34,415 nucleotides of DNA, from positions 1 to 34,415 of the forward strand of contig JAUWTM010000022.1 in NCBI GenBank assembly GCA_030614715.1, in the 5' to 3' direction. The DNA comes from Planctomycetota bacterium. GTDB lineage: Bacteria > JAJVIF01 > JAPKYR01. This document shows positions 13,864 through 32,879 of this stretch, in pieces (position 1 is the stretch's first letter; the number at the start of each line of letters is the position of its first letter). Position numbers and translations under genes: made by a program. Below the pieces are notes generated by a model. The model was not told the origin of the DNA, ran no database searches, and saw nothing but the letters and a program-made list of their open reading frames with translations.

Positions 13864-13886
13864 TTAACAGATCTCATGCAGATAAG

Positions 13887-16443: not shown

Positions 16444-17451
16444 ATGGATGAACTTCCGGAAAAAATTAACCCGCTTCTGGCACAAAACCTCGTTCCACCC
16501 GATCCCGCCACAGATCCCGATGCGCTGATTTCGGTCATCGTCCCCCTCAAGAACGAGGAAGGCACCCTGATCATGCTTTTCGACAAGGTCTGGGATGTTT
16601 TCAGGAAGATCGAGCGTGAATACGAGATCGTTTTCATCGACGATGGGAGCACGGACGGCAGTTATGGGGTGCTGCAGGACCTTTACAGGCAGCATCCGGA
16701 CATCGTAAGGGTTATAAAATTCCGGATGAACAAGGGGAAGGCTGCCGCGCTGGCTGCCGGTTTCAAACTTGCCGAGGGCGAGATAATAATCACGATGGAT
16801 GCCGACCTCCAGGACGACCCATCGGAGATCCCGCGATTCCTCGAAGCCCTTGCTAAAGGCGCGGACCTGATCTCAGGCTGGAAGAAGGTCCGTCACGATC
16901 CCCTTCACAAGGTAATTTTCTCGAGGTTCTGGAACTGGATAGTCAGCACTGCGGCCGGACTTCGGCTCCACGATTACAACTGCGGATTCAAGGCATACAG
17001 GAAGGAAGTTCTTAACGAGCTGCACATCTACGGCGATCTTCACAGGTACATCCCGTTCCTCGCGAAAGCAAGCGGCTACGTGGTCAGTGAAATAGTGGTC
17101 GAGCACCACCCACGGAAGTCCGGAGTCAGCAAGTACGGATTCGGACGGGTGTTCAGGGGTTTTTTCGACCTGTTCACTGTCATCATGCTCACGAGGTTCC
17201 GGCGTAACCCGCTCCATCTCTTCGGCTGGATCGGCTCTGTTCTTTTCATATCGGGAGTAATCATCAACGTGTGGCTGACATGGATCTGGATGCACGGTGC
17301 ATCGATCGGAAGCCGTCCACTACTCATCATGGGTGTGCTCCTGATGGTTGTCGGTGTCCAGATATTCACAATCGGACTGATAGGTGAGATGATTAACTCG
17401 CTCAAGCCCAGCGATCAGTCCGACCATCCAATAAAGACAATTCTGAAATGA
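16444..17451 (+). CDS. membrane-anchored family 2 glycosyltransferase (polyprenyl-phosphate glycosyltransferase type)
   Basis: The 335-aa protein has a GT-A domain opening SVIVPLKNEEGTL, then FIDDGSTDGS and the metal-binding DAD in MDADLQDD (about 119-126). Two C-terminal helices (257-282 and 292-317) anchor it. This is the layout of DPM1/GtrB/ArnC-like enzymes, which move a sugar from a nucleotide donor to a polyprenyl phosphate on the cytoplasmic face. It is the first gene of the glycan cluster. Its product could feed the GT39-like membrane enzyme at 29274, which would use such a lipid-linked sugar. That link is inference. The stop overlaps the next start as ATGA. Confidence 0.9.
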   Translation: MDELPEKINPLLAQNLVPPDPATDPDALISVIVPLKNEEGTLIMLFDKVWDVFRKIEREYEIVFIDDGSTDGSYGVLQDLYRQHPDIVRVIKFRMNKGKAAALAAGFKLAEGEIIITMDADLQDDPSEIPRFLEALAKGADLISGWKKVRHDPLHKVIFSRFWNWIVSTAAGLRLHDYNCGFKAYRKEVLNELHIYGDLHRYIPFLAKASGYVVSEIVVEHHPRKSGVSKYGFGRVFRGFFDLFTVIMLTRFRRNPLHLFGWIGSVLFISGVIINVWLTWIWMHGASIGSRPLLIMGVLLMVVGVQIFTIGLIGEMINSLKPSDQSDHPIKTILK

Positions 17452-18305
17452 GCGCTGCATCCGAGGATAACAGCCCGGGAAAATGCGGAATAGTTGTGCT
17501 CAACTACAACGGTCGGGACGTGCTCCCGGGACTTCTGGCATCTCTTGAGAAAATTGACTATCCCGATTTCAGGGTCTTTCTGATTGATAATGCATCGACC
17601 GATAACTCGGCCGATCTCACCGATGATTGGGTTGATAAATTTCCGATCAAGATCATACGCAACGACGAGAACCTGCTTTTCAGCCGCGGTAACAATGTCG
17701 GGATAGAACTGGCACTCGAGTGGGGAGCTGAGTACGTCTTTCTCCTGAACAATGACACGATTGTCCCCCCGGGCATCCTGACTGAACTGATTAATTACAT
17801 GGACGGGAAAGACAAGGTCGGAATAGCGGGACCGATGATCCATTTCGGTGCACCTGCAAGTACAATCTGGGGTGCCGGTGGGAACGTATCCACGTGGTGG
17901 GGACTTGTCAGGCATCGTGGAATACGCGAGAAAGACCAGGGGCAATTCGGTAAACCCGCGAAGGTCGATTACATCTCCGGCGCTGCGATGATGATCGGGA
18001 AGGAAGTTATTAACGCCATCGGCATGCTCGATCCTGATTTTCCAATGTACTTCGAAGACACTGATTTCTGCTTTCGCGCCCGGAAAGCCGGTTACGAAAG
18101 CTGGTACGTTCCAACGAAACCGATGATTCACCTCGTGAGTGTCGCTGCGGGCGGACAGGCGTCGAAGTTTAAAATTCAGCGACGGTTTTCGTCCGGGATG
18201 AAGTTTTTCGCACGACATGCTTCGTGGTATCAATGGCCTACGATAATTCTCGGACAGGTTTACGAGGCGATCAGGGTCGGACTGATGGTCGCGAGGGGAA
18301 TGTGA
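17448..18305 (+). CDS. family 2 glycosyltransferase, rhamnosyltransferase-like
   Basis: The 285-aa protein has the GT2 pattern IVVLNYNGRD, LIDNASTDNS and FLLNNDT, and the late motif MYFEDTDFCFRARKAGY that is common in glycan-assembly enzymes annotated as rhamnosyl- or galactofuranosyltransferases. No membrane segment is seen. It probably adds a sugar to a lipid-linked glycan in the cytoplasm. The sugar cannot be told. The start overlaps the previous stop by 4 nt and the stop abuts the next ATG, so translation is coupled. Residue 1 is set by the ATGA overlap. Confidence 0.88.
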   Translation: MSAASEDNSPGKCGIVVLNYNGRDVLPGLLASLEKIDYPDFRVFLIDNASTDNSADLTDDWVDKFPIKIIRNDENLLFSRGNNVGIELALEWGAEYVFLLNNDTIVPPGILTELINYMDGKDKVGIAGPMIHFGAPASTIWGAGGNVSTWWGLVRHRGIREKDQGQFGKPAKVDYISGAAMMIGKEVINAIGMLDPDFPMYFEDTDFCFRARKAGYESWYVPTKPMIHLVSVAAGGQASKFKIQRRFSSGMKFFARHASWYQWPTIILGQVYEAIRVGLMVARGM

Positions 18306-19607
18306 ATGCGCAAGGTCCTCTGCATAGCATATCTTTTTCCACCCCGTGCCGGAGTGGGTGTCCAGCGCATCACAAAATTCGTACGATACCTCCCCGATCA
18401 CGGCTGGCTGCCGGTTGTTCTAACTCCTGAAAAACCAGCGGGAAGTTTTCCCATCGATGAAGGCTACCAGCGTGAAATTCCGGACTCGGTAAAGGTCTGC
18501 ACGGCTGTAAGTTACGAGCCTTACCATTTCTACAGGTCGCTTGGCGGAACGAAACGTCAGGATGCGGCAGATTTCCGGGGTGTGCTCGAGGGTGGGAAGC
18601 GTCTCGGACTCATGGGACGTCTCTATTCGTCCTTTCAGGCTGCGTTCTTAATTCCCGATCCGAAGATCGGCTGGTTCCGTCCCGCCTTGAGTAAAGCAAG
18701 AGAGCTGATCGAGTCTGAAAAGATCGAAATGATCCTGTCGACGAGTCCGGAGGCCACCGACCACGTAATTGCACGGGCTGTCGCGCGTGAGACCGGCCTT
18801 CCATGGGTCATGGACTTCCGCGACCCGTGGACGACAAGCCTGTACGCTACAAAACGGCCGGAATGGGCGCGGCGCAGGGAAGAAGCACTCGAACTGAGCT
18901 GCCTTGTGGAATCATCCGCAATATCAGTTGTGCAGAAGCGATATCGGGATGAGTACCTGGGTAAATATCCCCCGTTATCGAGCGACTTTGATAAATTCCA
19001 CATCCTGCCGAATGGTTTCGATCCCAGCGACTTCGATGGAATCAAGCCGCGGAATTTCGACCTCTGGACCGTCGTTTATACAGGCTCCATAAGCTATCCA
19101 AGGGACCCGGAACCGTTCTTCAAAGGATGGAAAATCGCCTGCGAAAAGTGCGATGAGTTCCGTACGGGTGCGGGATGCCTGTTCATGGGCGAGTTCGACA
19201 GCCGCTTCCACGAGCTTGCGCCGAAGTATATAATTGACAACATTAAAATTGAGGGTTTCCAGGATCGAGATGCCGTATACTCGTCGCAGCTTGGTGCCGG
19301 GGCGCTCCTGCTGATCGCAGAGGGATACGTGACCGGTAAGGCCTACGAGTACCTTGCATCAGGCATGATCTCCGGACGTCCTGTATTATCAATTACAGAG
19401 GGTGGCGACCTGATCGAACTCATTGATAAGGCCCGTGCCGGACGTTGCCTGAAGCCGTCCGACCCTGACGGTATCGCTGAAGCCCTCATTGGGATGTACA
19501 AATCGAGGAATGATTCATTGAACATCGACAGGGAATTCCTCGCACGATACGACCGCCGGCGCATCACCGGCGAACTGGCGAAACTATTCGATGACATCAT
19601 CGCCTGA
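18306..19607 (+). CDS. family 4-like glycosyltransferase, paralogue of the gene at 26794
   Basis: The 433-aa GT-B protein opens VLCIAYLFPPRAGVGVQR, a typical GT4 N-terminus. Near residue 170 it has WVMDFRDPWT, and in the donor-binding half KAYEYLASG and PVLSITEGGDL. The gene at 26794 shares the same landmarks, including FRDPWT, NGFD and YEYLASG, so both belong to one subfamily. The ATG directly follows the previous TGA, and the end overlaps the next gene by 17 nt. Its role is adding a sugar to the lipid-linked glycan. Donor and acceptor are unknown. Confidence 0.87.
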   Translation: MRKVLCIAYLFPPRAGVGVQRITKFVRYLPDHGWLPVVLTPEKPAGSFPIDEGYQREIPDSVKVCTAVSYEPYHFYRSLGGTKRQDAADFRGVLEGGKRLGLMGRLYSSFQAAFLIPDPKIGWFRPALSKARELIESEKIEMILSTSPEATDHVIARAVARETGLPWVMDFRDPWTTSLYATKRPEWARRREEALELSCLVESSAISVVQKRYRDEYLGKYPPLSSDFDKFHILPNGFDPSDFDGIKPRNFDLWTVVYTGSISYPRDPEPFFKGWKIACEKCDEFRTGAGCLFMGEFDSRFHELAPKYIIDNIKIEGFQDRDAVYSSQLGAGALLLIAEGYVTGKAYEYLASGMISGRPVLSITEGGDLIELIDKARAGRCLKPSDPDGIAEALIGMYKSRNDSLNIDREFLARYDRRRITGELAKLFDDIIA

Positions 19608-20994
19608 TAATCCCCGGGAAACCGAAAAGTCCCTTGCACGCGACAGCGTTGGCACGACACTGACCAACGTCGTCCTTTTCATCGTCGGAGTTGTGATCTG
19701 GATCGCCATTGCGCGCCTGCTGGGACCAACCTGGCGTGGAGCACTGGCACTCGTGATGATCGCGCCAGCGATTGTCATTAAGACCGGTACGTTCGGATTC
19801 GATTACGGCATTGTTGTACTCGGTGGGAAAACACGGGAATCCCTTGACGTCCTGACACGGACAGGAATCGTGTTCGGCCTGATCGTAGGTCTCCTTTTTA
19901 TCGGGCTCCTGATGATTTTTATGTACGGTTTTCCCGTTGCGTTCTGGCGGTTGACCCAGGAGGTCTGGCTGCGCCCGCAGTACATCCTGATCGCGACCAT
20001 CTTTCCAATCCACCTGATGACCCTGATGTACGATGCCGCGATTTACGCCGAGGACAGAATCGCTGCACGTAACACGAAGGAACTGGTCGTAAATGCGGCA
20101 ATGCTGGCACTGATCCTGATCGTGGTTTTCGTTTTCAACATGCGACTTGTGGGGGTTATAGGTGCGTACATACTGGCAAATGTTATCAGCCTTGCGTACG
20201 CATGGAAACTGGTCCGGGGGCATGTTTCTCTTGGGGGAAACATCGATATCGCACTCGGGAAGAAAGCCGTTAAACTTGGATTCCCTGTCTACCTTGCTAA
20301 CATGGCCAGCTTCCTGATGCTCCCTGTGATGATGCTCACACTGTCATACGCACTCCCCGGTACGTCCGGCGACAACCTTGCCAGGATCGCATTCTTCACG
20401 ATGGCTTACCAGATGATCGACCGTACCCTGCCCGTTACTCGGTCGATTGCCTTCGCACTGCTCCCGAAAATCACCGGTGCATCCGATGCGCAGGCGGGAG
20501 AGCTTGCGGCGAAGGCATCAAGACATACGCTACTGGTGTCGCTCGCAATTTTTATAATTCTCGTGCTTTTAATGCACCCGATAGTTGAGATACTGCTCGG
20601 TAAAAGATATCTTGCTGTTGTCGGGGCGTTCATGATAATGGCTCCCGCAGGCGTTGCGATGTCTGTTACGGGTGTCTGGTCGACCCACCTGCTCGCCAGG
20701 TCCAGGCCGCTGATGGTCGCACGGGCAGGCATCATTGGCGTTGTGACAGCTCTAATACTAGCCGCACTGGGATTCAGTTATTATGAATCCGGCAGGGAAG
20801 TACTGGTTGCATCGGTTGCGGTAGTCGTTGGAGCCCTGGTGAATGCCGCGATGCTGCTGCCGTCGTTCTGCAGGGAAGGAGACCTGTCCCCGGCAAGGGT
20901 GCTGATCCCGACCGGAGAGGATTTAAGGGACTGGCAGCGGGTACCGGGTTTCGTACGGGAGTTATTTTCCGGAAGGCGCAGGGGACACAATTAG
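19591..20994 (+). CDS. polysaccharide flippase, Wzx type, copy 1
   Basis: The 467-aa protein is almost entirely hydrophobic, with about 12-14 helices. It opens with a short polar N-terminus followed by IARLLGPTWRGALAL, the usual first-loop LGP..G..AL pattern of the MOP/Wzx superfamily, and then GTFGFDYG. Such proteins move undecaprenyl-linked glycans across the inner membrane. A second flippase of the same type at 25409 shares the (R)LGP..(R/K)G and GTFGF features. Its ATG lies 17 nt inside the preceding gene. The C-terminal 40 residues are polar and Arg-rich. Confidence 0.87.
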   Translation: MTSSPDNPRETEKSLARDSVGTTLTNVVLFIVGVVIWIAIARLLGPTWRGALALVMIAPAIVIKTGTFGFDYGIVVLGGKTRESLDVLTRTGIVFGLIVGLLFIGLLMIFMYGFPVAFWRLTQEVWLRPQYILIATIFPIHLMTLMYDAAIYAEDRIAARNTKELVVNAAMLALILIVVFVFNMRLVGVIGAYILANVISLAYAWKLVRGHVSLGGNIDIALGKKAVKLGFPVYLANMASFLMLPVMMLTLSYALPGTSGDNLARIAFFTMAYQMIDRTLPVTRSIAFALLPKITGASDAQAGELAAKASRHTLLVSLAIFIILVLLMHPIVEILLGKRYLAVVGAFMIMAPAGVAMSVTGVWSTHLLARSRPLMVARAGIIGVVTALILAALGFSYYESGREVLVASVAVVVGALVNAAMLLPSFCREGDLSPARVLIPTGEDLRDWQRVPGFVRELFSGRRRGHN

Positions 20995-21006
20995 AATTTG
21001 TGCACA

Positions 21007-22140
21007 ATGAACGATGAGAAACTGACAATCGATGGACGTCCGCTGAGGCTTACCTATGTAGCTGATGCCTGGAACACTCATACCCATAGATGGGTCGGGT
21101 ATTTCAGGGATCTCGGCTGCGAAGTGAAGGTAATCAGCTACCGCGAGTGGGATATCCCTGGTGTCGAGGTCTACGTCCATTCACCGGTACCGCAGGGACT
21201 GATGACCATCCCACCCCTTAAACAGCTGCACACATTGACAGACTACATGCATGTCAAATCCATGATCAACTGGGCTGACATTGTCCACGTACATTTTATA
21301 TACCGCTACCGCTTCAACATGGTGTTTAAAGGCGTGCACAAGCTTGTTGTCAGCACGTGGGGAAAGGACATCATCACGGATTCGGATGAGCGGGAGCCCA
21401 GGAACGAGGTGTACTGGAAGAAGTACGTCCTCAAACAGGCCGCTGTACTCACCGCCACGACTCATTTTCTTGCGGACGCAACACGTAAATACTCTCCCGG
21501 GGGAAAGGAAATCCACGTAATTCCATTCGGCGTCGACCTTGATGTTTTTGATCCGGAAAAATTCCCCCGGAAAAATCCCGACGACCAGCCGTACAGGATC
21601 GGTTTCCTCAAGCACCTCCGGACAAAGTACGGTCCGGATACCCTGATCGAGGCGACAAGGCTGATTCGCGACCGCGGTCACAACATCAGGACCATCCTCG
21701 CGGGCGTGGGTGACGATGAGGACGAGTTGAGGAAGCTGGCTCGCGACCTTGGCGTCCACCGCATCATTGATTTCGTGGGTAGAATTCCACACGAGGAGGT
21801 CCCGGCGTTCATGGCCAGCCTCGACATCTTCTGCATGCCCTCGAGATGGGAATCGGAGACCTTCGGGGTCGCTGCGGTTGAAGCGGAGGCAATGGAAATT
21901 CCGGTTGTCGCGACCGCTGTCGGAGGCGTGCCGGAAGCCGTGGACGACGGCGTTACGGGGATACTTGTAAAGCCGAATGATCCCGTGGCAATCACTAACT
22001 CGATCAGTGACCTGCTCGAGGAGCCGTTAGTACGTGTCGAGATGGGTAAAGCCGGACGGAAATATGTTGCTGAGCACTACGACTGGCAGGAAAATGCCGC
22101 CCGTATGAAAAAGATCTACCTTGACCTCGTCCAATCATAG
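21007..22140 (+). CDS. family 4 glycosyltransferase, paralogue of the gene at 28105
   Basis: The 377-aa GT-B enzyme has ADAWNTHTHRWVGYF near the N-terminus, STWGKDI (about 111-117), the donor-site stretch IPFGVDL.VFDPEKF, and the C-terminal ESETFGVAAVEAEAM with the conserved E-x7-E. The gene at 28105 repeats the same landmarks: HTWKWVGWF, SPWGSDI, HYGVDT.VFDPDK and EELGVAALEASAM. ATG 21007 is chosen because the only earlier in-frame start is a TTG at 20998 with no support. The 12-nt spacing from the flippase stop suggests cotranscription. A 72-bp gap follows before the first FapA gene. Confidence 0.87.
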   Translation: MNDEKLTIDGRPLRLTYVADAWNTHTHRWVGYFRDLGCEVKVISYREWDIPGVEVYVHSPVPQGLMTIPPLKQLHTLTDYMHVKSMINWADIVHVHFIYRYRFNMVFKGVHKLVVSTWGKDIITDSDEREPRNEVYWKKYVLKQAAVLTATTHFLADATRKYSPGGKEIHVIPFGVDLDVFDPEKFPRKNPDDQPYRIGFLKHLRTKYGPDTLIEATRLIRDRGHNIRTILAGVGDDEDELRKLARDLGVHRIIDFVGRIPHEEVPAFMASLDIFCMPSRWESETFGVAAVEAEAMEIPVVATAVGGVPEAVDDGVTGILVKPNDPVAITNSISDLLEEPLVRVEMGKAGRKYVAEHYDWQENAARMKKIYLDLVQS

Positions 22141-22212
22141 TATTCACCTTTGTTAATGTTATAACTCAATGTAATTTCCCGTGCTATTAAGGATATTAAT
22201 AGTTGAAAGCCC

Positions 22213-23724
22213 ATGGTGGATACCAGCAAGAAATATTACATATTCCAGGAAGGGACCGATGTCATGTTCGTCAGCAACGTCCCCCCTGAAGAGCTTGATG
22301 GAGCCATTATTCAGGCGTTCAAGGAGGAGGTCAAAACCCGTGGGCTGGACAGGATTATCTTCCCCCATGTTGAGGACCTCATACTGAAGGCGAATCAGGG
22401 TGACGTAGTTAAAATCGGTGGTATTGACGCGATCACCCAAAGGGAGGCAGAGGAAGAAGCAGAGGAAGAGCCGGTCGAGGAGATCGATCCCGAGAACCTT
22501 CCTTTCAGTATTAAAGTTAACCCTGACGGCATGGCGGCGGTACTTGAAATAGATCAACCGACTGATTCCATCACGCGGGAACATATCGATGCAGCACTCG
22601 AATTCAACGGTATAAAAACCGGCCTGATCGAGGAGAACATAGAGAGGGTAATCAGGGAATGGCCGAAGGTCTTCAACTCGATCATAGCAAAGGGCGAACA
22701 ACCGGTCGATGGCGAGGATGCCGAGTTGGTGATGGTCAAGGACTTCAAGGATGACCTCATCCCCGAGGTAACAGAGGACGGGTTGGTTGACTTCAAGGAG
22801 CTTAACCTGATCTCCCCGATCTCAGTCAGTGAAATTCTACAGATACGAACACCTCCGACTCCGGGGACAGCCGGTATCACTGTATTCGGTAAGGAAATTC
22901 CAGCGACTCCGGGTAAGGACCTTAAATTACAGAAAGGCCAGAATACCGAGGAAACTAACGAGGGAACGAGACTTGTTGCACAGCTTGAGGGATTCCTACA
23001 CAGGGGTAACAGGGGTGAGTTGAACGTCAGGCCGGTCTACACCGTTAACGGTGACGTCGATTACTCCATCGGTAACATAAAATACAAGTCAGACGTGCTG
23101 GTCAGGGGTGATGTGCGTGGTGGATTCGAAATCGAGGCGGGCGGGGATGTGCGAATAATCGGAGCGGTGGAGGACGCTACGATTCATGCTGGCGGTAGTA
23201 TCGTCATTAACGGAGGTATCGTCTCGTCTGGCGATGCTCATATAAAGGCCGAAGGCGACGTTAGTGTCGGATTTATTCAGAACGGCACAATTGAAGCCGG
23301 TGGAAGCGTCTACGTGAAAATCGAGGCTATAGGCGCAACGATACATGCCGGGCGCGACATGGAAGTGGCACGTCGCGATGGAAGGATAATCGGCTGTGAT
23401 ATAACCGTCGGGGGATGGGTCGTGACGCAGGAAGTCGGATCGGAAAATTGTCCAACCCTGAAAATTATGTTCAAGGGACGGAAAGGGCAGTGGGAGAATC
23501 CGGATGACAGGTTTGTCTACAATTTCCTGTCAACCCGATCGATCAAAGCCCCGGTACGTGTTGTCTTTGGTTCGATAGCAACCGAGATCTTTGGAATAGA
23601 TCCGCCGCTTACTATTTCGATAAAGGACAGTAATATCTCGCTCGAAAATAAATTTGTCGGTGCGAAGGAAATCAAGCAGTTGCGACGTCTCCGTGAAGCA
23701 ACGGAGATGGATGAAGAGCAATAA
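22213..23724 (+). CDS. FapA-like DUF342 polymer-scaffold protein, copy 1
   Basis: The 503-aa protein matches FapA/DUF342, named from a flagellar assembly protein. Residues 1-75 form a domain shared with the next gene, IFQEGTD.MFV..VPPEELD. A Glu-rich linker (about 78-92), the N-terminal FapA domain and the hinge RTPPTPGTAG (about 214-223) follow. Residues about 275-420 are a right-handed beta-helix-like region rich in Gly, Asp and Ile/Val turns: GDVRGG, EAGGDV, GAVEDATI, GGIVSSGDA. These families make stiff rods or scaffolds. No flagellar gene is near, and the genes on both sides are flippase or transferase genes, so a role in glycan export or cell-surface scaffolding is inferred. No Shine-Dalgarno is clear. 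Confidence 0.9.
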   Translation: MVDTSKKYYIFQEGTDVMFVSNVPPEELDGAIIQAFKEEVKTRGLDRIIFPHVEDLILKANQGDVVKIGGIDAITQREAEEEAEEEPVEEIDPENLPFSIKVNPDGMAAVLEIDQPTDSITREHIDAALEFNGIKTGLIEENIERVIREWPKVFNSIIAKGEQPVDGEDAELVMVKDFKDDLIPEVTEDGLVDFKELNLISPISVSEILQIRTPPTPGTAGITVFGKEIPATPGKDLKLQKGQNTEETNEGTRLVAQLEGFLHRGNRGELNVRPVYTVNGDVDYSIGNIKYKSDVLVRGDVRGGFEIEAGGDVRIIGAVEDATIHAGGSIVINGGIVSSGDAHIKAEGDVSVGFIQNGTIEAGGSVYVKIEAIGATIHAGRDMEVARRDGRIIGCDITVGGWVVTQEVGSENCPTLKIMFKGRKGQWENPDDRFVYNFLSTRSIKAPVRVVFGSIATEIFGIDPPLTISIKDSNISLENKFVGAKEIKQLRRLREATEMDEEQ

Positions 23725-23792
23725 CATAACTGAATACATGCAATCTGTAAAAAATATTAATGATGGACTAACTATGCAGGGCCGGGTATATT

Positions 23793-23818
23793 GTTGATTC
23801 TAATTAGATTTAATCAAC
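23793..23818. promoter_or_regulatory. inverted repeat just before the second FapA start
   Basis: GTTGATT and AATCAAC are separated by 12 bp and end 6 nt before the ATG at 23825. The region could be an operator or a small leader hairpin over the initiation site. The 100-bp gap (23725-23824) has no Shine-Dalgarno and no clear promoter. Confidence 0.35.
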
Positions 23819-23824
23819 CTTTGA

Positions 23825-25342
23825 ATGGCTGACAAAAAAAGGAAATACCAGATTTTTCACGAGGGCACGGACATCATGTTCGTCGCATACGTCCCGCCCG
23901 AAGAGCTTGATGAGGATTTAATTACCTCCTTCAAGATTGAGGTCGAGAACCGGAAGCTTCAGGATGTCATTTTCCCCAATGTAGAGGAAATAATTCATAA
24001 TGCAGTCCCCAAGGAGCCGGTTAAGATCGGCGGTATGCAGCTGGCTCAGCAGTCCGTTGAAACGGAAGCACCTCCTGTTGAAGAAAAAGTTGTGATCGAC
24101 CCTGATGCCCTGCCTTTCAAGGTCGAGGTTTCAGCTGACGGTCTCCAGGCTCACTTGCAGGTTGAGGACATGGTCGGGACGATCACTGAAGAACACGTCA
24201 GGATCGGCCTTAAAAAAGCGGGTATAGTGTTTGGCATTATCGATGAAAACATGGAGACTTTTATCACGAAGTGGCCGCGGGAAGCGCACATCCTGATTGC
24301 GGAGGGCCATCCGTCTCTCGACGGTGAAGACGCGGTTGTCGAAACGATGAAGGTGATCAAGGAAGACCTGATCCCCGAGGTTGACGAGGACGGTCAGGTT
24401 GATTTCAAGCACCTCAACCTCATCTCACCGGTCGAGGAGGGTGAAGTCCTGCAGACCAGGATTCCCCCGACTCCGGGAACTCCGGGCAAAGATGTGTACG
24501 GAAAAATCCATCGGCAGAAACCCGGAAAGGATCAATCACTTAACAAGGGTGCGAATACTGTTGTAAACGAGGCGAAAACTGAGTTGACCGCATCATCCGG
24601 TGGGTTCATCCACAAGGGCAGGAACAACGCTATCGACGTTCACCCGGTTTATACTGTTAAAAAGAACGTCGATTATTCAACTGGAAATATCGATTACAAT
24701 GCGGACGTTCTGGTTAACGGTGATGTGAGAGCCGGATTCTCGGTGACCTCAGGCGGCGATATCCACATTAAGGGTGCTGTCGAGGACGCAACCATCGAGG
24801 CTGCAGGCAACGTGATTATCAACGGTGGCGTTGTTTCATCCGGCGAAGCTGTAATTAAAGCCGGTGGTGACGTCAGCGTGGGCTTCATTCAGCATGCGAC
24901 CATTGAAGCGGGCGGCAGCGTATTTATTAAGATCGCCTCGATGGGCTCGACAATCAGGGCTCACAGGGATGTTGAGATAATGAAGAAAGAGGGACGCATC
25001 TATGGTGGTGACATCGAGGTGGGCGGTTGGGTCGATGCGCAGATTATCGGTTGCGAATCGTGCGACACTCTTGTGATAAGGTTCCACGGTATGGACGGCG
25101 CGTGGGATGATCCCAATGACAGGTATAAATTCTCATTCGTGTCCACCAAGATGCTTGAATCCCCCATGAAGGTCGTGTACGGAGCACGTTCACATACCGT
25201 ACCTGCAGCTCATAAGGAAATTACCGTCCTTTTCGACGAGAAACGCATTGTCACCGAGCGTGAATTTATCAATCCCGACAGCCTGACCAAGCTTCGCGAG
25301 GAACGCGAATTAATGGAGCGTACTGCGGGTAAATCGCTGTAA
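23825..25342 (+). CDS. FapA-like DUF342 polymer-scaffold protein, copy 2
   Basis: The 505-aa paralogue of the preceding gene has the same order: a conserved N-terminal block IFHEGTDIMFVAYVPPEELD, KIGG at about 70, the FapA N domain, the hinge RIPPTPGTPG, and the beta-helix region with GAVEDATIEA, INGGVVSSGEA and GDVSVGFIQHATIEAGGSV. The two are clearly similar along their whole length, most strongly in the beta-helix. The last 80 residues differ more. Both copies keep the repeats, so neither looks decayed. Two scaffolds could form a hetero-polymer. That is inference. Confidence 0.9.
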   Translation: MADKKRKYQIFHEGTDIMFVAYVPPEELDEDLITSFKIEVENRKLQDVIFPNVEEIIHNAVPKEPVKIGGMQLAQQSVETEAPPVEEKVVIDPDALPFKVEVSADGLQAHLQVEDMVGTITEEHVRIGLKKAGIVFGIIDENMETFITKWPREAHILIAEGHPSLDGEDAVVETMKVIKEDLIPEVDEDGQVDFKHLNLISPVEEGEVLQTRIPPTPGTPGKDVYGKIHRQKPGKDQSLNKGANTVVNEAKTELTASSGGFIHKGRNNAIDVHPVYTVKKNVDYSTGNIDYNADVLVNGDVRAGFSVTSGGDIHIKGAVEDATIEAAGNVIINGGVVSSGEAVIKAGGDVSVGFIQHATIEAGGSVFIKIASMGSTIRAHRDVEIMKKEGRIYGGDIEVGGWVDAQIIGCESCDTLVIRFHGMDGAWDDPNDRYKFSFVSTKMLESPMKVVYGARSHTVPAAHKEITVLFDEKRIVTEREFINPDSLTKLREERELMERTAGKSL

Positions 25343-25389
25343 CGCTCCATCCCCAGACACCATGAGAGCAATCTCCGAACTGTATACTG

Positions 25390-25395
25390 TATAAT
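25390..25395 (+). promoter_or_regulatory. perfect TATAAT before the second flippase gene
   Basis: TATAAT sits 14 bp before the GTG at 25409, in a 66-bp gap. No -35 is recognisable. If used, the leader would be about 7 nt. It could provide an internal promoter for the second glycan module. Confidence 0.35.
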
Positions 25396-25408
25396 TACAG
25401 GTTCGACT

Positions 25409-26794
25409 GTGATTAAGGACTCCCTCTATACACTTTTTACGCGAATCTTCTATATTATCGGGAAGATAATTTACTCCGTCGTTATCAACCGTACACTCGG
25501 TCCGGAAGGTAAGGGTCTATTCGAGCTTATCCAACTCGGTCCGAACGTGTTGAGCAGCTTTGGAACCTTCGGATTTAACGAGTCCAACACCTATTTCAGC
25601 GGCAAAAAACCTGAGAAAATCCCAAACATTATCGGTAACTCCTACAGGCTGGCAGGGATTTTCTCGATCATCGCTATCATACTCGGTGCCGGATTCCTGT
25701 TCTTAAAAGTTAATCGGGGACTGTTTACAGAGATCCCGATGTGGGTCGGATTCCTCGCACTGCTTGTAATTCCGATAATTCTCCTCGACCTCTTTCTCGA
25801 ATGTATTCTCTACGGTGAAAATCGTATATGGGTCCGCAACTGGCACGAGATCCTGCGAATCGTTTCGGGCATCCTGTTCATGGGCTTTTTCGTAATCATC
25901 CTTAACTGGTACGTGCAGGGTGCGGTTTACGGGTACCTTCTTATCCACACGGTGCTTCTGATCTTCACTTTTGTAATTTTAAGCCGTTTCCATAAACCAG
26001 CTGGTGGAAAACTCGATAAACCGTTGGTTAAGGAAAGCTGGATGTTTGCCCGGTTCAGCTGGGGTGCGAATTTCGCCCAGTATCTGCTGTTGAACATCGA
26101 TAGGTGGCTCATTTTCCTTCTTGTTGCAGAGAACATAAGGACTCAGCAGGTCGGACTTTATTCAACCGCTGCCAATGTCATGGTGAACATCTGGATCATA
26201 CCGGCTTCCATTCAGACAGCATTGATCCCGAAGATAACTCAGAAGGGTGAATCGGAAAGAAAGAAACTCGTCCCGCCAAGCCTGAGGATTGTTACCATAC
26301 TCGTAATCCTCGCGATTGCTATTCTTGTCCTTATTGGTAAACCCGCACTCGACATCCTGTACAACAGACCTGACAAGACTTGGGACTTTACCATGGCTTA
26401 CATTCCAATGATGCTCCTGATTCCCGGTATCTTCTCAATGTCGTTCGCCAAGGTCTTCGCCGCCGACTTTTTCAGCCGGGGCAAGCCTTACATCTCGATG
26501 TGGGTGTCCATATTCGCGCTGTTCAACAACGTCTGGATCAACCTCGTCCTGATCCCGAGCGACTGGACGATCGGCAGCCTCTATATTGGTGGAATGAACG
26601 GCGCAGCGATCGCGTCGAGTATCGCCTACACACTGAGCTTCATCCTGTTCCTGTACCTGTACGTGAAGGAGTCCGGTGAAAAATCAAGAGACCTCTTCAT
26701 ACCCAAAAAGGTCGACTTTGAAACTATCTGGGCGTGGGTTGTTATCTCGCTGCGCAATCTCTCGAAGAAAAATACCGACGGGGGGGACGCGTAA
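25409..26794 (+). CDS. polysaccharide flippase, Wzx type, copy 2
   Basis: The 461-aa polytopic protein has about 12-14 helices. The first loop NRTLGPEGKGLFEL and GTFGFNESN match the MOP/Wzx flippase pattern, like the first copy at 19591. The two are divergent relatives and not recent duplicates. The start is GTG at 25409. The stop codon overlaps the next ATG by 1 nt (TAATG). With two flippases the locus may export two glycans, or one may act on a different lipid-linked substrate. Confidence 0.85.
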   Translation: MIKDSLYTLFTRIFYIIGKIIYSVVINRTLGPEGKGLFELIQLGPNVLSSFGTFGFNESNTYFSGKKPEKIPNIIGNSYRLAGIFSIIAIILGAGFLFLKVNRGLFTEIPMWVGFLALLVIPIILLDLFLECILYGENRIWVRNWHEILRIVSGILFMGFFVIILNWYVQGAVYGYLLIHTVLLIFTFVILSRFHKPAGGKLDKPLVKESWMFARFSWGANFAQYLLLNIDRWLIFLLVAENIRTQQVGLYSTAANVMVNIWIIPASIQTALIPKITQKGESERKKLVPPSLRIVTILVILAIAILVLIGKPALDILYNRPDKTWDFTMAYIPMMLLIPGIFSMSFAKVFAADFFSRGKPYISMWVSIFALFNNVWINLVLIPSDWTIGSLYIGGMNGAAIASSIAYTLSFILFLYLYVKESGEKSRDLFIPKKVDFETIWAWVVISLRNLSKKNTDGGDA

Positions 26795-28101
26795 TGCCGG
26801 GGAAACGTAAGCGCCGACCAGTAAGCTCTCGTCCGTCGGTCGGAAAAATCCTCTTCGTAAGCTACTTCATGCCTCCGACCGTTGGTGGCGGGACCTTCCG
26901 TCCACTGGCAATGGTGAAATACCTCTCACGTCTGGGCTGGGATATCACCGTAATCACCGCGACAACACCGGCACATTATCCTACTGACCCGGAACTCGAA
27001 AAGCAGATCCCTGAGAGTGTGAAGGTCATCAGAATTCCAGTGGTCTGGGAGGGAAGCACGTTCCGGAGGATTCTCGGACGGCTTAAACTCGACTGGATAC
27101 CTGAGAACCTGATCACCCCGGACGAACGGGTCTTCTGGGTCGAAAAAGCTGATAATCGCGCGAAAAAGCTGCTTAAAGAGACAAATTTCGACGTTCTCTA
27201 CACTACCGGACCACCGTTCTCGATTCTCATGGGCGGTCTCTGGCTGAAACGTGATAAAAAGATCGACATTCCCTGGCTTGCTGAGTTCCGGGACCCGTGG
27301 ACACTCGCACCGTACCTGTCGATCGCAAACGCGCATCACAGACGGGTTGCTAACGACACCGAATCCGACCTTATGAACCTCGCTGACAAGGTAGTGATGG
27401 TTACACCGACCTTTGCGCGCCTGTTGAAGGAAAAATATCCTGACCATGCTGTGAAAGTGAAGTGCGTACCCAATGGTTTCGACGGAGAGGACTTCAGGGA
27501 CCTTCCAGTCCGGGCCGAATGGCACAACGAGACCTGCGAGATTGCCGCGTCGGGCACCGTGTTCGGTCGGTATAACATGGATGAATTCCTCAAGGGCCTC
27601 GAAAAACTCAGGACAACTGAGCCCGGGTACTACGGTAAAATATTTGTGAAATTTCAGGGTCTTCCAAACTACAAACTGAATCAAAGACTGCTTGAGTCTG
27701 GGCTTAATGACCGCTGCGCATCGAGGGGCTTCGTGCCTCATTCAGAAAACATACGTGACCTCTGGGCATCCGATCTCCTTGTGCTTCCGCTTGCGGAAGT
27801 TGGTAACTGCGAGGGGCACATACCGAGCAGGACCTATGAATATCTCGCGAGTGGAACGCCGGTTCTGGCGATCTGCCCTGACGGTGATCTGTCCGATCTG
27901 CTTTCCGATTATCCGCAGGTCAACATTGTCAAACCGGGGGATACAGATGGTATTGTTAACGCATTAAAGGACGCAGTCTCAGGCTGGGAGCGTAACGACC
28001 CTCTTTTTGAACCGGACCCGAACGCCCTGAGAACGCTGACCCGCAAGGCTCGTGCCGCTGAACTGGATGTAATTTTCAAGGAGCTGTTGAGCAAAGGCTG
28101 A
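26794..28101 (+). CDS. family 4-like glycosyltransferase, paralogue of the gene at 18306
   Basis: The 435-aa GT-B protein starts with a basic stretch (PGKRKRRPVSSR), then KILFVSYFMPPTVGGGTFR. It shares PESVKV, EFRDPWT, VPNGFDG and RTYEYLASGTPVLAI with the gene at 18306. ATG 26794 overlaps the stop of the flippase gene and has a G-rich stretch upstream. An ATG at 26734 would add 20 residues that are flippase sequence read in another frame. It is a cytoplasmic glycan-assembly enzyme with unknown donor and acceptor. Confidence 0.86.
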   Translation: MPGKRKRRPVSSRPSVGKILFVSYFMPPTVGGGTFRPLAMVKYLSRLGWDITVITATTPAHYPTDPELEKQIPESVKVIRIPVVWEGSTFRRILGRLKLDWIPENLITPDERVFWVEKADNRAKKLLKETNFDVLYTTGPPFSILMGGLWLKRDKKIDIPWLAEFRDPWTLAPYLSIANAHHRRVANDTESDLMNLADKVVMVTPTFARLLKEKYPDHAVKVKCVPNGFDGEDFRDLPVRAEWHNETCEIAASGTVFGRYNMDEFLKGLEKLRTTEPGYYGKIFVKFQGLPNYKLNQRLLESGLNDRCASRGFVPHSENIRDLWASDLLVLPLAEVGNCEGHIPSRTYEYLASGTPVLAICPDGDLSDLLSDYPQVNIVKPGDTDGIVNALKDAVSGWERNDPLFEPDPNALRTLTRKARAAELDVIFKELLSKG

Positions 28102-28104
28102 CCA

Positions 28105-29244
28105 ATGACACGAATTCTCTTCATAGCACCGGGTGACAATTCCCACACGTGGAAGTGGGTAGGGTGGTTCGGTAAAAAGTATCCGGGTGAGATCGCGCTG
28201 CTGCCGTACCAGGCACCGGCCCCGAAAGATATGCTTCCGGGGGTCGAGATACTCAAACCATTCATTCCCCCGTTCAAAATTGCATCGATCGGATCGTGGA
28301 CCCTGTTCGGTAAGATAAAGAAACGCGTCCATGAACTGAAGCCGAAGCTCCTCCACGTGCTCTGGGCGTACGGTGCAGGATCGTACGGCGCGAGATCGGC
28401 TTATAAACCGACGATTTTGAGCCCGTGGGGCAGCGACATCACGATCTTCCCGAAAAATCCCGGTGTGAAGGGTGCCATCCAGAAACTTCTTATCGTGGAA
28501 GCGTTGGAGAAAGCCGATTACCTCACAGCTACGAGCAAATTTCTGCAGGACGCCATTCATGAACTGGTGCCGTCAAGGCCTGTCCCGGACCTGTTCCACT
28601 ACGGTGTCGACACATCGGTGTTCGACCCCGACAAGGTGGACGTCCCGATGAAATTTCCGTGGCCTGACGGTGCTCCGCTGGGCGACAGGGCTATCACGGT
28701 CGGATTCTTCAAAGCGCTGAAACCCAAGTACGGTCCGGATTTCCTCATTGATTCACTGGCGATGGCAGCGAGGAAGGTTCCCGGAATCAGGCTGATCATG
28801 GCCGGTACGGGTGAGATGAAGGATCAGCTCGTGGAGAAGGCGAATTCACTCGAGATCGACAACAGGATCGTATTTCCGGGACGGATTCCGTACGAGGAAA
28901 TGCCGAGGGCACTTGCGGCAGTCGACATCTTCACAATGCCCAGCCGTTACGAGGAACTCGGCGTTGCGGCACTTGAGGCGTCCGCAATGCGAAAACCGGT
29001 CGTTCTCACAAAGAGATGGGGCATGAGCGAGGTTGCACTCGAGGGTGAGACCGGGCTGTACATCGCACCGGGTGACATCGACCTCCTCAGGGATCATATC
29101 GTTAAACTTTCACACGATATCCAGTTCAGGACCAGGCTCGGGAATGCCGGACGGGAATTCGTGCAGGGGAAGTTCGAGTTCGAAAAAATCATGCAGGACG
29201 CAGATAGATACTGCACTGATATCATCGATAAGTTTTCGGCTTAG
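28105..29244 (+). CDS. family 4 glycosyltransferase, paralogue of the gene at 21007
   Basis: The 379-aa GT-B enzyme has RILFIAPGDNSHTWKWVGWF at the start, SPWGSDI (about 111-117), HYGVDTSVFDPDK, GFFKALKPKYGPDFL and the E-x7-E pattern in EELGVAALEASAM. The gene at 21007 has the same landmarks, including KYGPD.LI after GFLKHL. It starts 3 nt after the previous stop and ends 29 nt before the GT39-like gene. It probably forms one assembly line with the 26794 gene. The linkage made is unknown. Confidence 0.87.
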   Translation: MTRILFIAPGDNSHTWKWVGWFGKKYPGEIALLPYQAPAPKDMLPGVEILKPFIPPFKIASIGSWTLFGKIKKRVHELKPKLLHVLWAYGAGSYGARSAYKPTILSPWGSDITIFPKNPGVKGAIQKLLIVEALEKADYLTATSKFLQDAIHELVPSRPVPDLFHYGVDTSVFDPDKVDVPMKFPWPDGAPLGDRAITVGFFKALKPKYGPDFLIDSLAMAARKVPGIRLIMAGTGEMKDQLVEKANSLEIDNRIVFPGRIPYEEMPRALAAVDIFTMPSRYEELGVAALEASAMRKPVVLTKRWGMSEVALEGETGLYIAPGDIDLLRDHIVKLSHDIQFRTRLGNAGREFVQGKFEFEKIMQDADRYCTDIIDKFSA

Positions 29245-29273
29245 AAATCTGTTAACATCGCGAAATCAGCGAA

Positions 29274-30887
29274 ATGGCGACTGGAAATAAAAATAAACCT
29301 GCGAATGGTGACTTATCAGCCAGCACCGGGCTTCCTCCCGAACCTCCCGGTTTAAGGCGAACGCTCTGGTGGATTTTCATCCTCACGATCGCGGTGTACC
29401 TGATCCCATCCCCTCTCGGTCCCGGACATTTCATTGTCACCAAGTCAGGTGCTGCATCATGGAACGACCAGGCCCGTATCGCGACTGTCGAGAGCATTAC
29501 CGAGCGCGGAACGATGGCTATCGACTACTCAAAATGGGGATGGTTTACCGGCGACAAGGTCCTCCTGCGCGAACATTTTTACTCAACCAAGCCCCCGATG
29601 CTGAGCACAGTCGGTGCGGCAAGCTACATGGTCCTTCGCGCCGGCGTCAAAGCCGTCACGGGTCACGAGATCACCTATATTAGAAATGAGGACATCATTT
29701 ATCCCTGGGTGACCCTGACAACGGTCGTGCTTGCGTTCGCCCTGCTGCTGGTCTATTTCTACAGGGCCCTACACCTCGTGGACCTTTCAAAGGGAACGAG
29801 GTGGCTCCTGTTCTGGGCACTGGCCATCGGCAGCCTGTATCCTGCGTATTCAAGCGTACTGAACAACCATACTGTAGCGGGAGCCGGGATTTTCATCGCC
29901 TTCTACTACGTGGTGAAATACCGTCTCGGCGGTCAGGTCAGGTGGTGGGAGGCACTTTTCGCGGGAATTGCAGTCGGATTCGCGGGAGTGAACGATTTTA
30001 CCGGTGCACTGCCCTTTGTCGCGTTCCTGTTCATTCTGCTTGCCGTTCATGACATCCCGAGAGCTGATTTCTGGCCTGTCACGGCACACCAGCGGGGATT
30101 CATGGCAGTCTCGGTGGTTCTCATGGTCGCTGCAGTGGCTTCGCTTGCACTGGGGATCGGAACACGGGGCGTCGCGATCCTGATGATCACACCCCTTGCC
30201 ATCGGTTTGCTGATCGGTGCAGCACTTGCGATCAGGCGTTACCCGACAACCTTCCTGTATTTCCTTGGAGTGATGATCCCGGTTGCTGCGCATCTTTTCC
30301 TTAACTCGAGGATTACCGGCAACTGGATGCCGACTTACATACAATCGGACGTTTACATAGCCGTCCCACCGGGGTATTTCGGCGAGGTCCTGTCACCTGA
30401 GGAAGCTGGAGCGCTTTACTGGGCCAGGTGGAAATACGCAGGTATCGCGCTGTTCGGAATCAGGGGAGTATTCCTTTACACTCCCGCGATTCTCCTCGGG
30501 CTTGTCGCAGCGTTCATGATCGCGTTCAGGAAGGGATTAAAGCTGCGACTGGACGCCGTTCTGACAATCCTGGCTGTTATCGCGGGATGGGGATGGGTGC
30601 TGTTTTTCGCGTCACCGAATTTCGGAGGCACAAGCTACGGTTTCCGTTACGCCATCGCGGCAACACCGGTTCTCATTTTCTTCAGCCACTACCTGCTGCA
30701 GGTGATAGATAAAACCTGGATGCACCCGATTTACCGTAACGCCGTATACTGGGGCGCGATAGTGGGCATCATCGCTATTCCCTATCCATGGGGAATGTTC
30801 GGTAACCTTCCCCAGACCCAGTGCAGCATTGTCGGTAACCTCGAGTACATCGCGTTCAACACGATGCTGACCTTCTCCCAGTTATAA
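29274..30887 (+). CDS. polytopic GT39/ArnT-like membrane glycosyltransferase
   Basis: The 537-aa protein has about 11-13 hydrophobic segments. After the first helix (about 25-45) a long loop carries ERGTMAIDYSK and FYSTKPPMLS. This TKPP-type loop with acidic residues is typical of GT-C enzymes that use a polyprenyl-phosphate sugar donor on the outer face of the inner membrane. The lipid-linked donor could come from the GT2 enzyme at 16444, which opens the same cluster. That connection is inference. It is the last plus-strand gene. Its stop codon overlaps the U-run of the terminator of the converging lipoprotein gene. Confidence 0.75.
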   Translation: MATGNKNKPANGDLSASTGLPPEPPGLRRTLWWIFILTIAVYLIPSPLGPGHFIVTKSGAASWNDQARIATVESITERGTMAIDYSKWGWFTGDKVLLREHFYSTKPPMLSTVGAASYMVLRAGVKAVTGHEITYIRNEDIIYPWVTLTTVVLAFALLLVYFYRALHLVDLSKGTRWLLFWALAIGSLYPAYSSVLNNHTVAGAGIFIAFYYVVKYRLGGQVRWWEALFAGIAVGFAGVNDFTGALPFVAFLFILLAVHDIPRADFWPVTAHQRGFMAVSVVLMVAAVASLALGIGTRGVAILMITPLAIGLLIGAALAIRRYPTTFLYFLGVMIPVAAHLFLNSRITGNWMPTYIQSDVYIAVPPGYFGEVLSPEEAGALYWARWKYAGIALFGIRGVFLYTPAILLGLVAAFMIAFRKGLKLRLDAVLTILAVIAGWGWVLFFASPNFGGTSYGFRYAIAATPVLIFFSHYLLQVIDKTWMHPIYRNAVYWGAIVGIIAIPYPWGMFGNLPQTQCSIVGNLEYIAFNTMLTFSQL

Positions 30888-30910
30888 AAAAATCCGCCTG
30901 ACAGGCGGAT
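30886..30910 (-). terminator. rho-independent terminator of the small lipoprotein gene
   Basis: On the minus strand the stem ATCCGCCT/AGGCGGAT (8 bp, 3-nt loop) is followed by a run of seven T (30892-30886). The run overlaps the TAA stop of the converging plus-strand gene. It terminates only the minus transcript, because the plus side has no T-run. Confidence 0.85.
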
Positions 30911-30935
30911 CAATTGATCTCAGATATGATCACGT

Positions 30936-31523: not shown

Positions 31524-32132
31524 TCAGACAATGAATTCAGTGCTGCGGTTATGAACGGCTTCTTCCGGTTTATGCAGATAATACTTGATAACCCTCAAAA
31601 GGGTCCTTGCATCGACAGGTTTCGTTATGTACTCGCTTGCACCGGCCTGCAGAGCTTTTACTACAGTTCCCTTCTCATTATCCGCGGTCAGAATCAGCAC
31701 CTTGGCGTCGCTGTCATGGTCCAGAATTCTCTTCGTGGCTTCAATTCCATCCATGATCGGCATGTATAGGTCCATCAGGGTGAGTCCGGGCCTGTGACGT
31801 TTGAAGAGTTCCACCGCGTCCAATCCATTATCCGCTACACCCAGTATGTTGATCCCATGCCTGGTGAGAATCTTCTGGAGCATGTGCTGCACGATCTCGC
31901 AGTCCTCAGCGATAATGATGCTCTTCATGGGATCGGGGCTTGCATGGATTTTTTTCGGGGTGCTTTTTTTCTTATTCTTCGTGATATCTTTTTCAATTAA
32001 CTGTGATTCTACTGCTGCAAGGTTCGATTCGAGGGAACTGATCCGCTTCTCTCTCACGGAGCACAGGTCAAGGAGTTTCTCGATTATCTCGATGTATTCT
32101 TCACCCTCAAGATTTGCCAGTATTTTTTTCAT
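31524..32132 (-). CDS. stand-alone receiver-domain response regulator with N-terminal helical module
   Basis: The 202-aa protein has a helical module at 1-50 (EYIEIIEKLLDLCSVREKRI, then a short coiled coil), a basic linker, and a receiver domain from about 70. The receiver is complete: acidic pair Glu76-Asp77, phosphoacceptor Asp121 in MDLYMP, Thr149 and Lys171. There is no output domain, as in CheY/Spo0F-type proteins. No histidine kinase is in the window. The gene at 32187 is its paralogue with the same N-terminal module, 54 nt upstream in the operon. AAGGA lies about 9 nt before the ATG. Confidence 0.9.
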   Translation of the reverse strand: MKKILANLEGEEYIEIIEKLLDLCSVREKRISSLESNLAAVESQLIEKDITKNKKKSTPKKIHASPDPMKSIIIAEDCEIVQHMLQKILTRHGINILGVADNGLDAVELFKRHRPGLTLMDLYMPIMDGIEATKRILDHDSDAKVLILTADNEKGTVVKALQAGASEYITKPVDARTLLRVIKYYLHKPEEAVHNRSTEFIV

Positions 32133-32186: not shown

Positions 32187-32879
32187 CTATTCCAGGAGCC
32201 TTGACATATCAAGCACTGCATTTCCAAACTGATCGATTTCCACCTGACGGTATCCGTAGACAACGTACTCCTTGATTACTTTCAGAAGATGCTTGGAGTT
32301 GATCGGTTTGGTGAAAAACTCATCTGCTCCGCATTGCTGGGCCTTTCGAACCAGCTCACGTCCGCCTTCCATGCTGAACAGGATCACCTTTATTTCAGGA
32401 TACCTGTCCTTGATCTCCATGGTCAGTTCGAAGCCGTTCATTCCCGGCATGTCAACCTCTACTGTCACAATTACCGGCTTGCACTTGGTGAACGCCCTCA
32501 GTGCCTGCTCGGCATCGCTGACCGTACCCACGACCTCGAGCCGATGTGCCACGAGGAATCCGCGCAGGAGTACCTTCATGATATCGCTGTGTTCCACGAT
32601 CAGGATTCCCTGCGGTGTTTCTTTGTCTGGGCTGTCTTCACGAAGCAGTCGTTCCCTTCTGGCTCTCGGACTGTTATCCCCGCGGTTCTTCGCGGATTCA
32701 AGCACCTTTACACGTGTTTCGAGCTGCCTGATTCTCTGCTCCTTCTCGGAGCACTGCTCGAGCAGCCCTACGATAATTTCCAGGACCTCGGGGTTTTCAG
32801 CTATGTCGTTCTTCTTGACCATTTCCCGGCAATTGTACCCAGTCCGCCCAATGAGCGGCATGGGCACATAATCACCCAT
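32187..32879 (-). CDS. receiver-domain protein with degenerate active site
   Basis: The 230-aa protein has the same plan as its paralogue at 31524: a helical module (EVLEIIVGLLEQCSEKEQRI), a basic linker, then a receiver. The Lys191 and Ser169 positions are kept. However, the residue aligning with the phosphoacceptor Asp is Glu141 in VEVDMPGMNG, and the acidic pair is Glu96-His97. Spacing between these positions is identical in the two proteins, so the alignment is sure. It is probably not phosphorylated in the normal way. ATG 32879, with AGGTG about 9 nt upstream, is used. An ATG at 32822 would align the N-terminal module exactly with the paralogue but lacks a good Shine-Dalgarno. Confidence 0.88.
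   Translation of the reverse strand: MGDYVPMPLIGRTGYNCREMVKKNDIAENPEVLEIIVGLLEQCSEKEQRIRQLETRVKVLESAKNRGDNSPRARRERLLREDSPDKETPQGILIVEHSDIMKVLLRGFLVAHRLEVVGTVSDAEQALRAFTKCKPVIVTVEVDMPGMNGFELTMEIKDRYPEIKVILFSMEGGRELVRKAQQCGADEFFTKPINSKHLLKVIKEYVVYGYRQVEIDQFGNAVLDMSRLLE

Follow-up and report, generated by a model that had tools for sequence, protein, structure and literature searches.

Two glycan cassettes of Wzx type and a younger pair of FapA genes in one Planctomycetota gene run: a probable lineage-specific juxtaposition

A gene run with four gene pairs

The window analysed here covers positions 1-34,415 of contig JAUWTM010000022.1 in the Planctomycetota bacterium assembly GCA_030614715.1, and our subject is the run of eleven open reading frames (ORFs) at 16444-30887, which are all co-directional on the + strand and comprise glycosyltransferase genes of the GT2 and GT4 types, two genes for Wzx-type flippases and two FapA genes (Table 1). 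The gene order given by the initial annotation (GT2-GT2-GT4a-Wzx-GT4b-FapA-FapA-Wzx-GT4a-GT4b-GT39-like) matches the ORF positions, and domain scans support its first ten genes. Adjacent genes are spaced by no more than 100 bases, and several overlap. We refer to the first five genes as module 1 and to the last four as module 2, with FapA1-FapA2 lying between them.

Table 1. Genes of the run, with module and profile matches (cut-off, curated cut-off of the family).
Gene	Position	Strand	Module	Type	Evidence
GT2a	16444..17451	+	1	polyprenyl-phosphate glycosyltransferase type	PF00535, E 3e-28; C-terminal hydrophobic stretches
GT2b	17448..18305	+	1	rhamnosyltransferase-like GT2	PF00535, E 4e-19; TIGR01556, E 1e-18, below cut-off
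GT4a1	18306..19607	+	1	GT4	PF13579 and PF13439, both below cut-off
Wzx1	19591..20994	+	1	MOP-type flippase	PF01943 (Polysacc_synt), 24.5 bits, E 2e-5; cut-off 28.2
GT4b1	20998..22140	+	1	GT4	PF00534, E 2e-40; alternative ATG at 21007 (initial annotation) possible
FapA1	22213..23724	+		FapA	PF03961, 139 bits, and PF20250, 125 bits, both over cut-off
FapA2	23825..25342	+		FapA, tandem paralogue of FapA1	PF03961, 156 bits, and PF20250, 122 bits, both over cut-off
Wzx2	25409..26794	+	2	MOP-type flippase	PF01554 (MatE), 23.0 bits, E 7e-5; cut-off 24.9
GT4a2	26794..28101	+	2	GT4	PF13439, E 6e-13, over cut-off; longest ORF starts at 26734
GT4b2	28105..29244	+	2	GT4	PF00534, E 6e-32
GT39-like	29274..30887	+	2	polytopic protein	NF047440, E 3e-7, below cut-off

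An all-against-all blastp of 14 window proteins confirmed that Wzx, GT4a, GT4b and FapA each occur twice: the two copies share 50% identity for FapA (E 4e-170), 33% for GT4b (E 3e-51), 28% for GT4a (E 7e-34) and 25% for Wzx (E 9e-23). The partner was the sole strong in-cluster match of each paired protein, and since the top cross-family match in the cluster reached merely 0.006 (GT4a1-GT4b1), the pairing is far beyond chance. The initial annotation had regarded the pairs as the divergent products of an old duplication of a Wzx-GT4-GT4-FapA module, and not of a recent tandem duplication. The latter point is borne out by the identities (25-50%) and by the age of three of the pairs, as described below.

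The FapA pair is far younger than the other three

Five genomes of the phylum were compared, namely that of the window (G000; 254 contigs, 87% complete), two from its family but another genus (G001, 92% complete, and G002) and two from its class (G003 and G004). Four of these assemblies are in hundreds of contigs, while G003 is in four. The depth of each pair was estimated on maximum-likelihood trees, as the path length between the paralogues versus that to the sister-genus orthologues. These values are 3.67 versus 0.62-0.99 for Wzx (ratio ~3.7-5.9), 2.83 versus 0.46-0.72 for GT4b (ratio ~3.9-6.2) and 3.58 versus 0.28-0.67 for GT4a (ratio ~5.3-12.8). For FapA, the path is 1.26 between the two copies, and 1.01 (FapA1) and 1.18 (FapA2) to the G002 copy. 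Hence the FapA pair (ratio 1.1-1.25, versus ~4-13 for the others) is far younger, and its membership of the duplicated module, as had been claimed, is not supported. In the FapA tree, FapA1 grouped with the G002 FapA (98/81) and FapA2 fell outside, so that the FapA duplication predates the genus split; it probably occurred shortly before the window genus and its sister separated. Whether through an old co-duplication or through independent recruitment, the Wzx, GT4a and GT4b pairs diverged before the radiation of the class.

The trees were built from 65 of the 125 collected rows for GT4a, 44 of 61 for GT4b, 28 of 33 plus one G003 ORF (29 rows) for Wzx, and the two window rows plus 17 rows from 16 loci for FapA; incomplete or redundant ORFs and relatives of lower rank were omitted. 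The GT4a relatives came from a contig scan with a GT4a profile that had GT4a1 as its first sequence; of the 592 confirmed matches the best 80 were kept, which gives the close kin of GT4a1 too large a share of that tree. Long branches were flagged in all four trees and come together in three of them (GT4a, Wzx and FapA), so that individual placements are unsure.

In the 29-row Wzx tree, the eight rows from the two modules are united in a single clade (100/99), inside which the G003 and G004 proteins group weakly with module 1 (92/85); the alternative, with module 2, was not rejected by the approximately unbiased (AU) test (p 0.169). The GT4b proteins of the two modules fall in a clade of nine (97/93), which also holds a protein of G055 and one of G003, and forcing the two modules together cost 4.8 log units (AU p 0.296, not rejected). 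GT4a1 lies in a 23-row clade (94/82) that is mainly Bacteroidota, with Balneolota, KSB1 and Calditrichota, whereas GT4a2 is placed elsewhere, beside long-branched rows; here the one-clade constraint cost 11.7 log units (AU p 0.272, not rejected). The partners proposed by the initial annotation are thus mutually closest for Wzx, nearly so for GT4b, and also for FapA save that the G002 copy is nearer to FapA1; the GT4a partners are not, although their union was not rejected. With Wzx joined, GT4b nearly joined and a common origin of GT4a1 and GT4a2 not rejected by the AU test, an ancient co-duplication of the three genes is conceivable.

The modules and the FapA genes lie apart in relatives

The orthologues of modules 1 and 2 are on separate contigs in both G001 (C253 and C156) and G002 (C403 and C588). 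Neither FapA nor the other module was found in the 6.1 kb (G001) and 1.2 kb (G002) available 3' of GT4b1, nor in the 4.7 kb (G001) and 10.6 kb (G002) 5' of Wzx2, and the gene that precedes Wzx2, which is common to the two genomes (60% identity), is unmatched in the window. The FapA of G002 is on a third contig, adjoining a divergent 1075-aa ORF. The presence of other genes at these positions speaks against a duplication in place, and unlinked halves, which the initial annotation had named as the observation that would count against it, were thus seen in the sister genus as far as the contigs reach.

In G003, the genes miaA, dapF, aminotransferase, GT2a, GT2b, GT4a and Wzx occur together in the same order as in the window, with a gap of 2.6 kb between the aminotransferase and GT2a genes and no match to the window genes at 12985-14768. 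Its nearest GT4b1 homologue shares that contig at a distance of 1.2 Mb; the GT39-like gene of G003 is on another contig, with a second GT4a. A convergent GT2-like gene follows module 1 in both G003 and G004 (the two are 34% identical to each other), and the G004 counterpart of module 2 (C20) is a distant GT4a-GT4 pair only. As the arrangement of module 1, FapA and module 2 occurs in none of the four relatives, within the DNA available, the window layout is most simply regarded as derived.

Beyond these genomes, GT4a and Wzx, with or without GT4b, recur as sets across phyla. Among the best 80 of the 592 GT4a relatives, with flanks of at most 10 kb, 31 have a Wzx gene, 18 a GT4b-like gene and 13 both; FapA and GT39-like genes occur in none. 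The order of the trio differs, being GT4b-Wzx-GT4a in Firestonebacteria (L134), Wzx-GT4a and then GT4b 2.7 kb away in Chloroflexi (L095), and Wzx and then GT4b-GT4a in G062. Conversely, Wzx, GT4a and GT4b are absent from all 16 FapA loci collected outside the window, which come from 11 genomic regions of other phyla, four of this phylum and the G002 locus L034, represent 17 of the 38 FapA match rows outside the window and include several short ones (3.9-7.7 kb). FapA is therefore linked to Wzx or GT4 genes in none of the 96 other loci.

Origin of the mirror-like layout

From these lines of evidence, we propose as the most credible explanation, and one that we hold to be quite probable, that two pre-existing, ordinary glycan cassettes of the Wzx type, distantly related to each other, were brought next to one another in this lineage, with a younger tandem pair of FapA genes of other origin between them. 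Module 1 belongs to the miaA-dapF-aminotransferase locus that is also present in G003, and module 2 has a separate site in the sister genus. It follows that a mirror-like cluster can exist without block duplication, the ages of the pairs being different and the halves being apart in relatives. Several points weigh against this proposal. The comparison involves five genomes, mostly fragmented, and the two modules of G001 and G002 could be some tens of kb apart. For G001, the lack of window-type FapA was judged from an assembly that is 92% complete, and the G002 contig stops 78 bases past its FapA gene, so that a second copy is possible there. In addition, the co-directional tight spacing over the FapA pair is operon-like, and a + strand terminator-like site is absent from all three gaps around the FapA genes. 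A + strand promoter-like site was, however, called at 23764, in the FapA1-FapA2 gap; both kinds of site are near shuffle level (18 versus 13.8, sd 3.7; 15 versus 14.7, sd 4.0).

The block duplication of a single Wzx-GT4-GT4-FapA module around the FapA pair accounts for the mirror-like layout, and its claim of great age is correct for the Wzx, GT4a and GT4b pairs. We regard it as highly unlikely, as it is largely refuted by the unequal depth of the young FapA pair, and the modules lie apart in the sister genus and FapA linkage was seen nowhere else (0/16 FapA loci, 0/80 GT4a loci). An assembly or binning artefact that fused unrelated contigs at the FapA genes would be in keeping with the fragmented and incomplete assembly (254 contigs, 87%) and with the absence of the joint from all the relatives' contigs, but it is scarcely credible, knowing that the window contains no N, that the GC content at third codon positions (GC3) stays within 0.57-0.68 across the eleven genes, to either side of the joint, and that one and the same family supplies the best relatives of the genes to its left and to its right.

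As to how the two cassettes themselves arose, they may have been assembled separately, and partly by horizontal transfer, out of widely distributed Wzx, GT4a and GT4b genes. This origin, which is conceivable though we would not call it probable, agrees with the differing orders of the trio in Firestonebacteria, Chloroflexi and G062 and with the GT4a tree. It is at odds with the Wzx clade of the phylum and with the near-mutual best match of the GT4b proteins, GT4b2 retrieving GT4b1 (2e-46) directly after the G013 protein (2e-48). The Wzx clade and the GT4b clade of nine fit instead an old co-duplication of Wzx-GT4a-GT4b in the class ancestor, which did not include FapA and after which the copies were separated. 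This origin also agrees with the broadly similar relative depths of the three pairs and with the AU tests, which rejected a single clade neither for GT4a nor for GT4b. We consider it a tentative explanation, because GT4a1 sits in the mainly Bacteroidota clade away from GT4a2, which scores 122 bits against GT4a1, versus 161-177 bits against proteins of G005, G004 and G124 and 201 bits against the Chloroflexi L095 protein. Similarly, GT4b1 ranks proteins of G013, G129, G055 and G003 (3e-56 to 1e-54) above GT4b2 (3e-47), and the GT4b group includes the G055 protein from another phylum. Finally, in path length the G003 and G004 Wzx proteins are almost as distant from Wzx1 (3.37 and 3.21) as is Wzx2 (3.67) and closer to Wzx2 (3.01 and 2.85), with which their grouping was not rejected.

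Glycosyltransferases, flippases and the predicted glycan pathway

Two GT2 and three GT4 enzymes of the run score over their Pfam cut-offs, and GT4a1 falls below. GT2a also matches, below cut-off, NCBIfam NF007986 (PRK10714, undecaprenyl-phosphate 4-deoxy-4-formamido-L-arabinose transferase; E 7e-52), and its orthologue in the G003 miaA-dapF-aminotransferase locus is 51% identical. GT4a1 has matches in all four other genomes of the phylum (G002 78%, G004 44%, G003 37%, and G001 in two pieces of 79% and 76%), and GT4b1 has orthologues in G002 (60%), G001 (58%) and G004 (40%). In module 2, the orthologues are 62% identical in both G001 and G002 for GT4a2, and 70% (G001) and 69% (G002) for GT4b2.

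Both flippases are likely homologous to Wzx-type flippases, judging by their sequences, though the curated cut-offs are not reached; Wzx2 also matches TIGR00797 below cut-off (E 2e-11). The orthologues of Wzx1 are 58% (G001) and 62% (G002) identical, and those of Wzx2 53% (G001) and 55% (G002). G003 contains, at L079:11187-13604 (contig C1), an 805-aa Wzx-like ORF whose N-terminal stretch matches residues 1-98 of Wzx2 and is followed by a long insert, in one open frame, with PDZ matches (PF17820, 30.1 bits, cut-off 27; PF00595, 26.6 bits, cut-off 23.2); its predicted product is a flippase carrying an inserted PDZ region.

The GT39-like label of the last gene fared less well, as its product matched no believable Pfam family and no GT39 (PMT) family at E<=1. 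NF047440, the LA_3751/LA_3752 putative glycosyltransferase family, is weakly matched by the three GT39-like homologues scanned (best 2e-14), so that the likeness to this family is a weak profile match and the gene differs from it in scoring far under the curated cut-off. The protein is at best GT-C-like; its structure model is too poor to use (mean pLDDT 45), and its profile gave no meaningful match to PDB sequences. A 63% orthologue follows GT4b2 in G001, and a 30% relative adjoins a GT4a-like gene in G003; the gene was not found on the G002 module 2 contig, which stops 0.7 kb past GT4b2.

Gene clusters for Wzx-dependent polysaccharides and glycans include those of the O-antigen, capsule and exopolysaccharide types. 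The run resembles them by its likely MOP/MatE-type flippases and several GT2/GT4 genes in one co-directional series, and differs from them by its two flippases and internal FapA pair. By analogy with such families, the GT4 and GT2 enzymes would assemble a lipid-linked oligosaccharide at the cytoplasmic face, and each Wzx would flip its own product. GT2a, which is nearest to the aminoarabinose-type transferases acting on undecaprenyl phosphate, may load a sugar onto polyprenyl phosphate, to be used as a donor at the outer face by the GT39-like protein. A further difference from the known clusters is that a Pfam scan of 20 ORFs of the window recognised no initiating phosphoglycosyl transferase, polymerase or ligase; the search did not extend to other parts of the genome. 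A search of the available literature for the duplication of Wzx-flippase glycosyltransferase gene clusters found nothing.

The FapA pair

FapA proteins are cytoplasmic beta-solenoid proteins, elsewhere tied to flagellar assembly. Both window copies carry the FapA_N and FapA beta-solenoid domains above the curated cut-offs, the solenoid model being covered over ~150 of its 272 positions, and their length (503-505 aa) compares with 460-540 aa in most FapA of other phyla. A separate long FapA (~610 aa) is encoded on contig C77 of the window genome. The window type was found in two of the five phylum genomes (G000 and G002), while G001 and G004 gave matches to the long type only and G003 gave no FapA match. 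A GT2b-like gene is present in three of the 16 FapA loci outside the window, all three carrying the long type of this family. Using FapA2 as the query, a scan of the genome contigs found no relative. Its structure model is too poor to use (mean pLDDT 50), and returned no Foldseek match at E<=0.001 (the weak rows include several MinC); the comparison with PDB sequences gave no meaningful match.

The neighbours of FapA at L303, L306, L307 and L308 look flagellar or chemotactic, as judged by eye from N-terminal sequences, no domain search being made. Excerpts from two papers describe fapA (bb0267) as adjoining flgV (bb0268) in an operon with flagellar genes in Borrelia burgdorferi (PMC11607428), and FapA as recruited to the cell pole by HubP in Vibrio vulnificus (PMC12918733). 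The window proteins resemble these flagellar FapA in having both domains, at a length usual for FapA of other phyla. They differ in their partial solenoid coverage, in the presence of a separate long FapA in the genome and in their surroundings, as the Pfam scan of the window ORFs revealed no flagellar family. In view of the FapA loci elsewhere, the published proteins and the FlhA and flagellin matches in all five phylum genomes, the window FapA are best read as flagellum-related or general scaffold proteins that are here by chance, and they are more likely co-located with glycan synthesis than part of it. Searches of the available literature found nothing for FapA discussed as DUF342, and the passages surfacing for a DUF342-bactofilin link concern DUF3426 instead.

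A bolder idea, which we judge very improbable, is that the two FapA form a scaffold in the cytoplasm that would bring both Wzx cassettes to a single site, possibly the flagellated pole, for the joint synthesis and export of two glycans. If true, it would widen the role of the FapA family to glycan assembly; nothing strongly points there. The pointers are the close packing of the window genes in one direction, a G003 flagellin ORF that has a GT4b homologue at a distance of 0.4 kb (L078:6224-10354, the only flagellin with a nearby GT4b homologue) and a GT4a-GT4 pair ~4 kb from flhA in G004 (L076:2629-12569). Against them stand the lack of FapA linkage in the 96 loci and the absence of GT4a, GT4b, Wzx, GT39-like and FapA genes, as detected with the window profiles, from all 11 other flagellin/flhA regions of the five genomes. 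One of these regions (G000:C20) has a GT2b-like gene, and an ORF of G004:C148 looks GT2-like by eye. Of the flagellin matches in this phylum, the best nine lie within open frames of 864-992 aa.

Genes flanking the run

A short way upstream of the run, the ORFs at 12985-13863 and 13860-14768 encode tandem paralogous hydrophobic proteins (26% identical, E 4e-19), which matched no Pfam family. Downstream and convergent with the run, 31524-32132 and 32187-32879 on the - strand encode tandem receiver-domain proteins (PF00072; 32% identical, E 3e-29). Between the cluster end and the convergent gene, a nine-pair hairpin with a minus-strand T run (30891-30911) may terminate the convergent transcript, and perhaps that of the cluster too.

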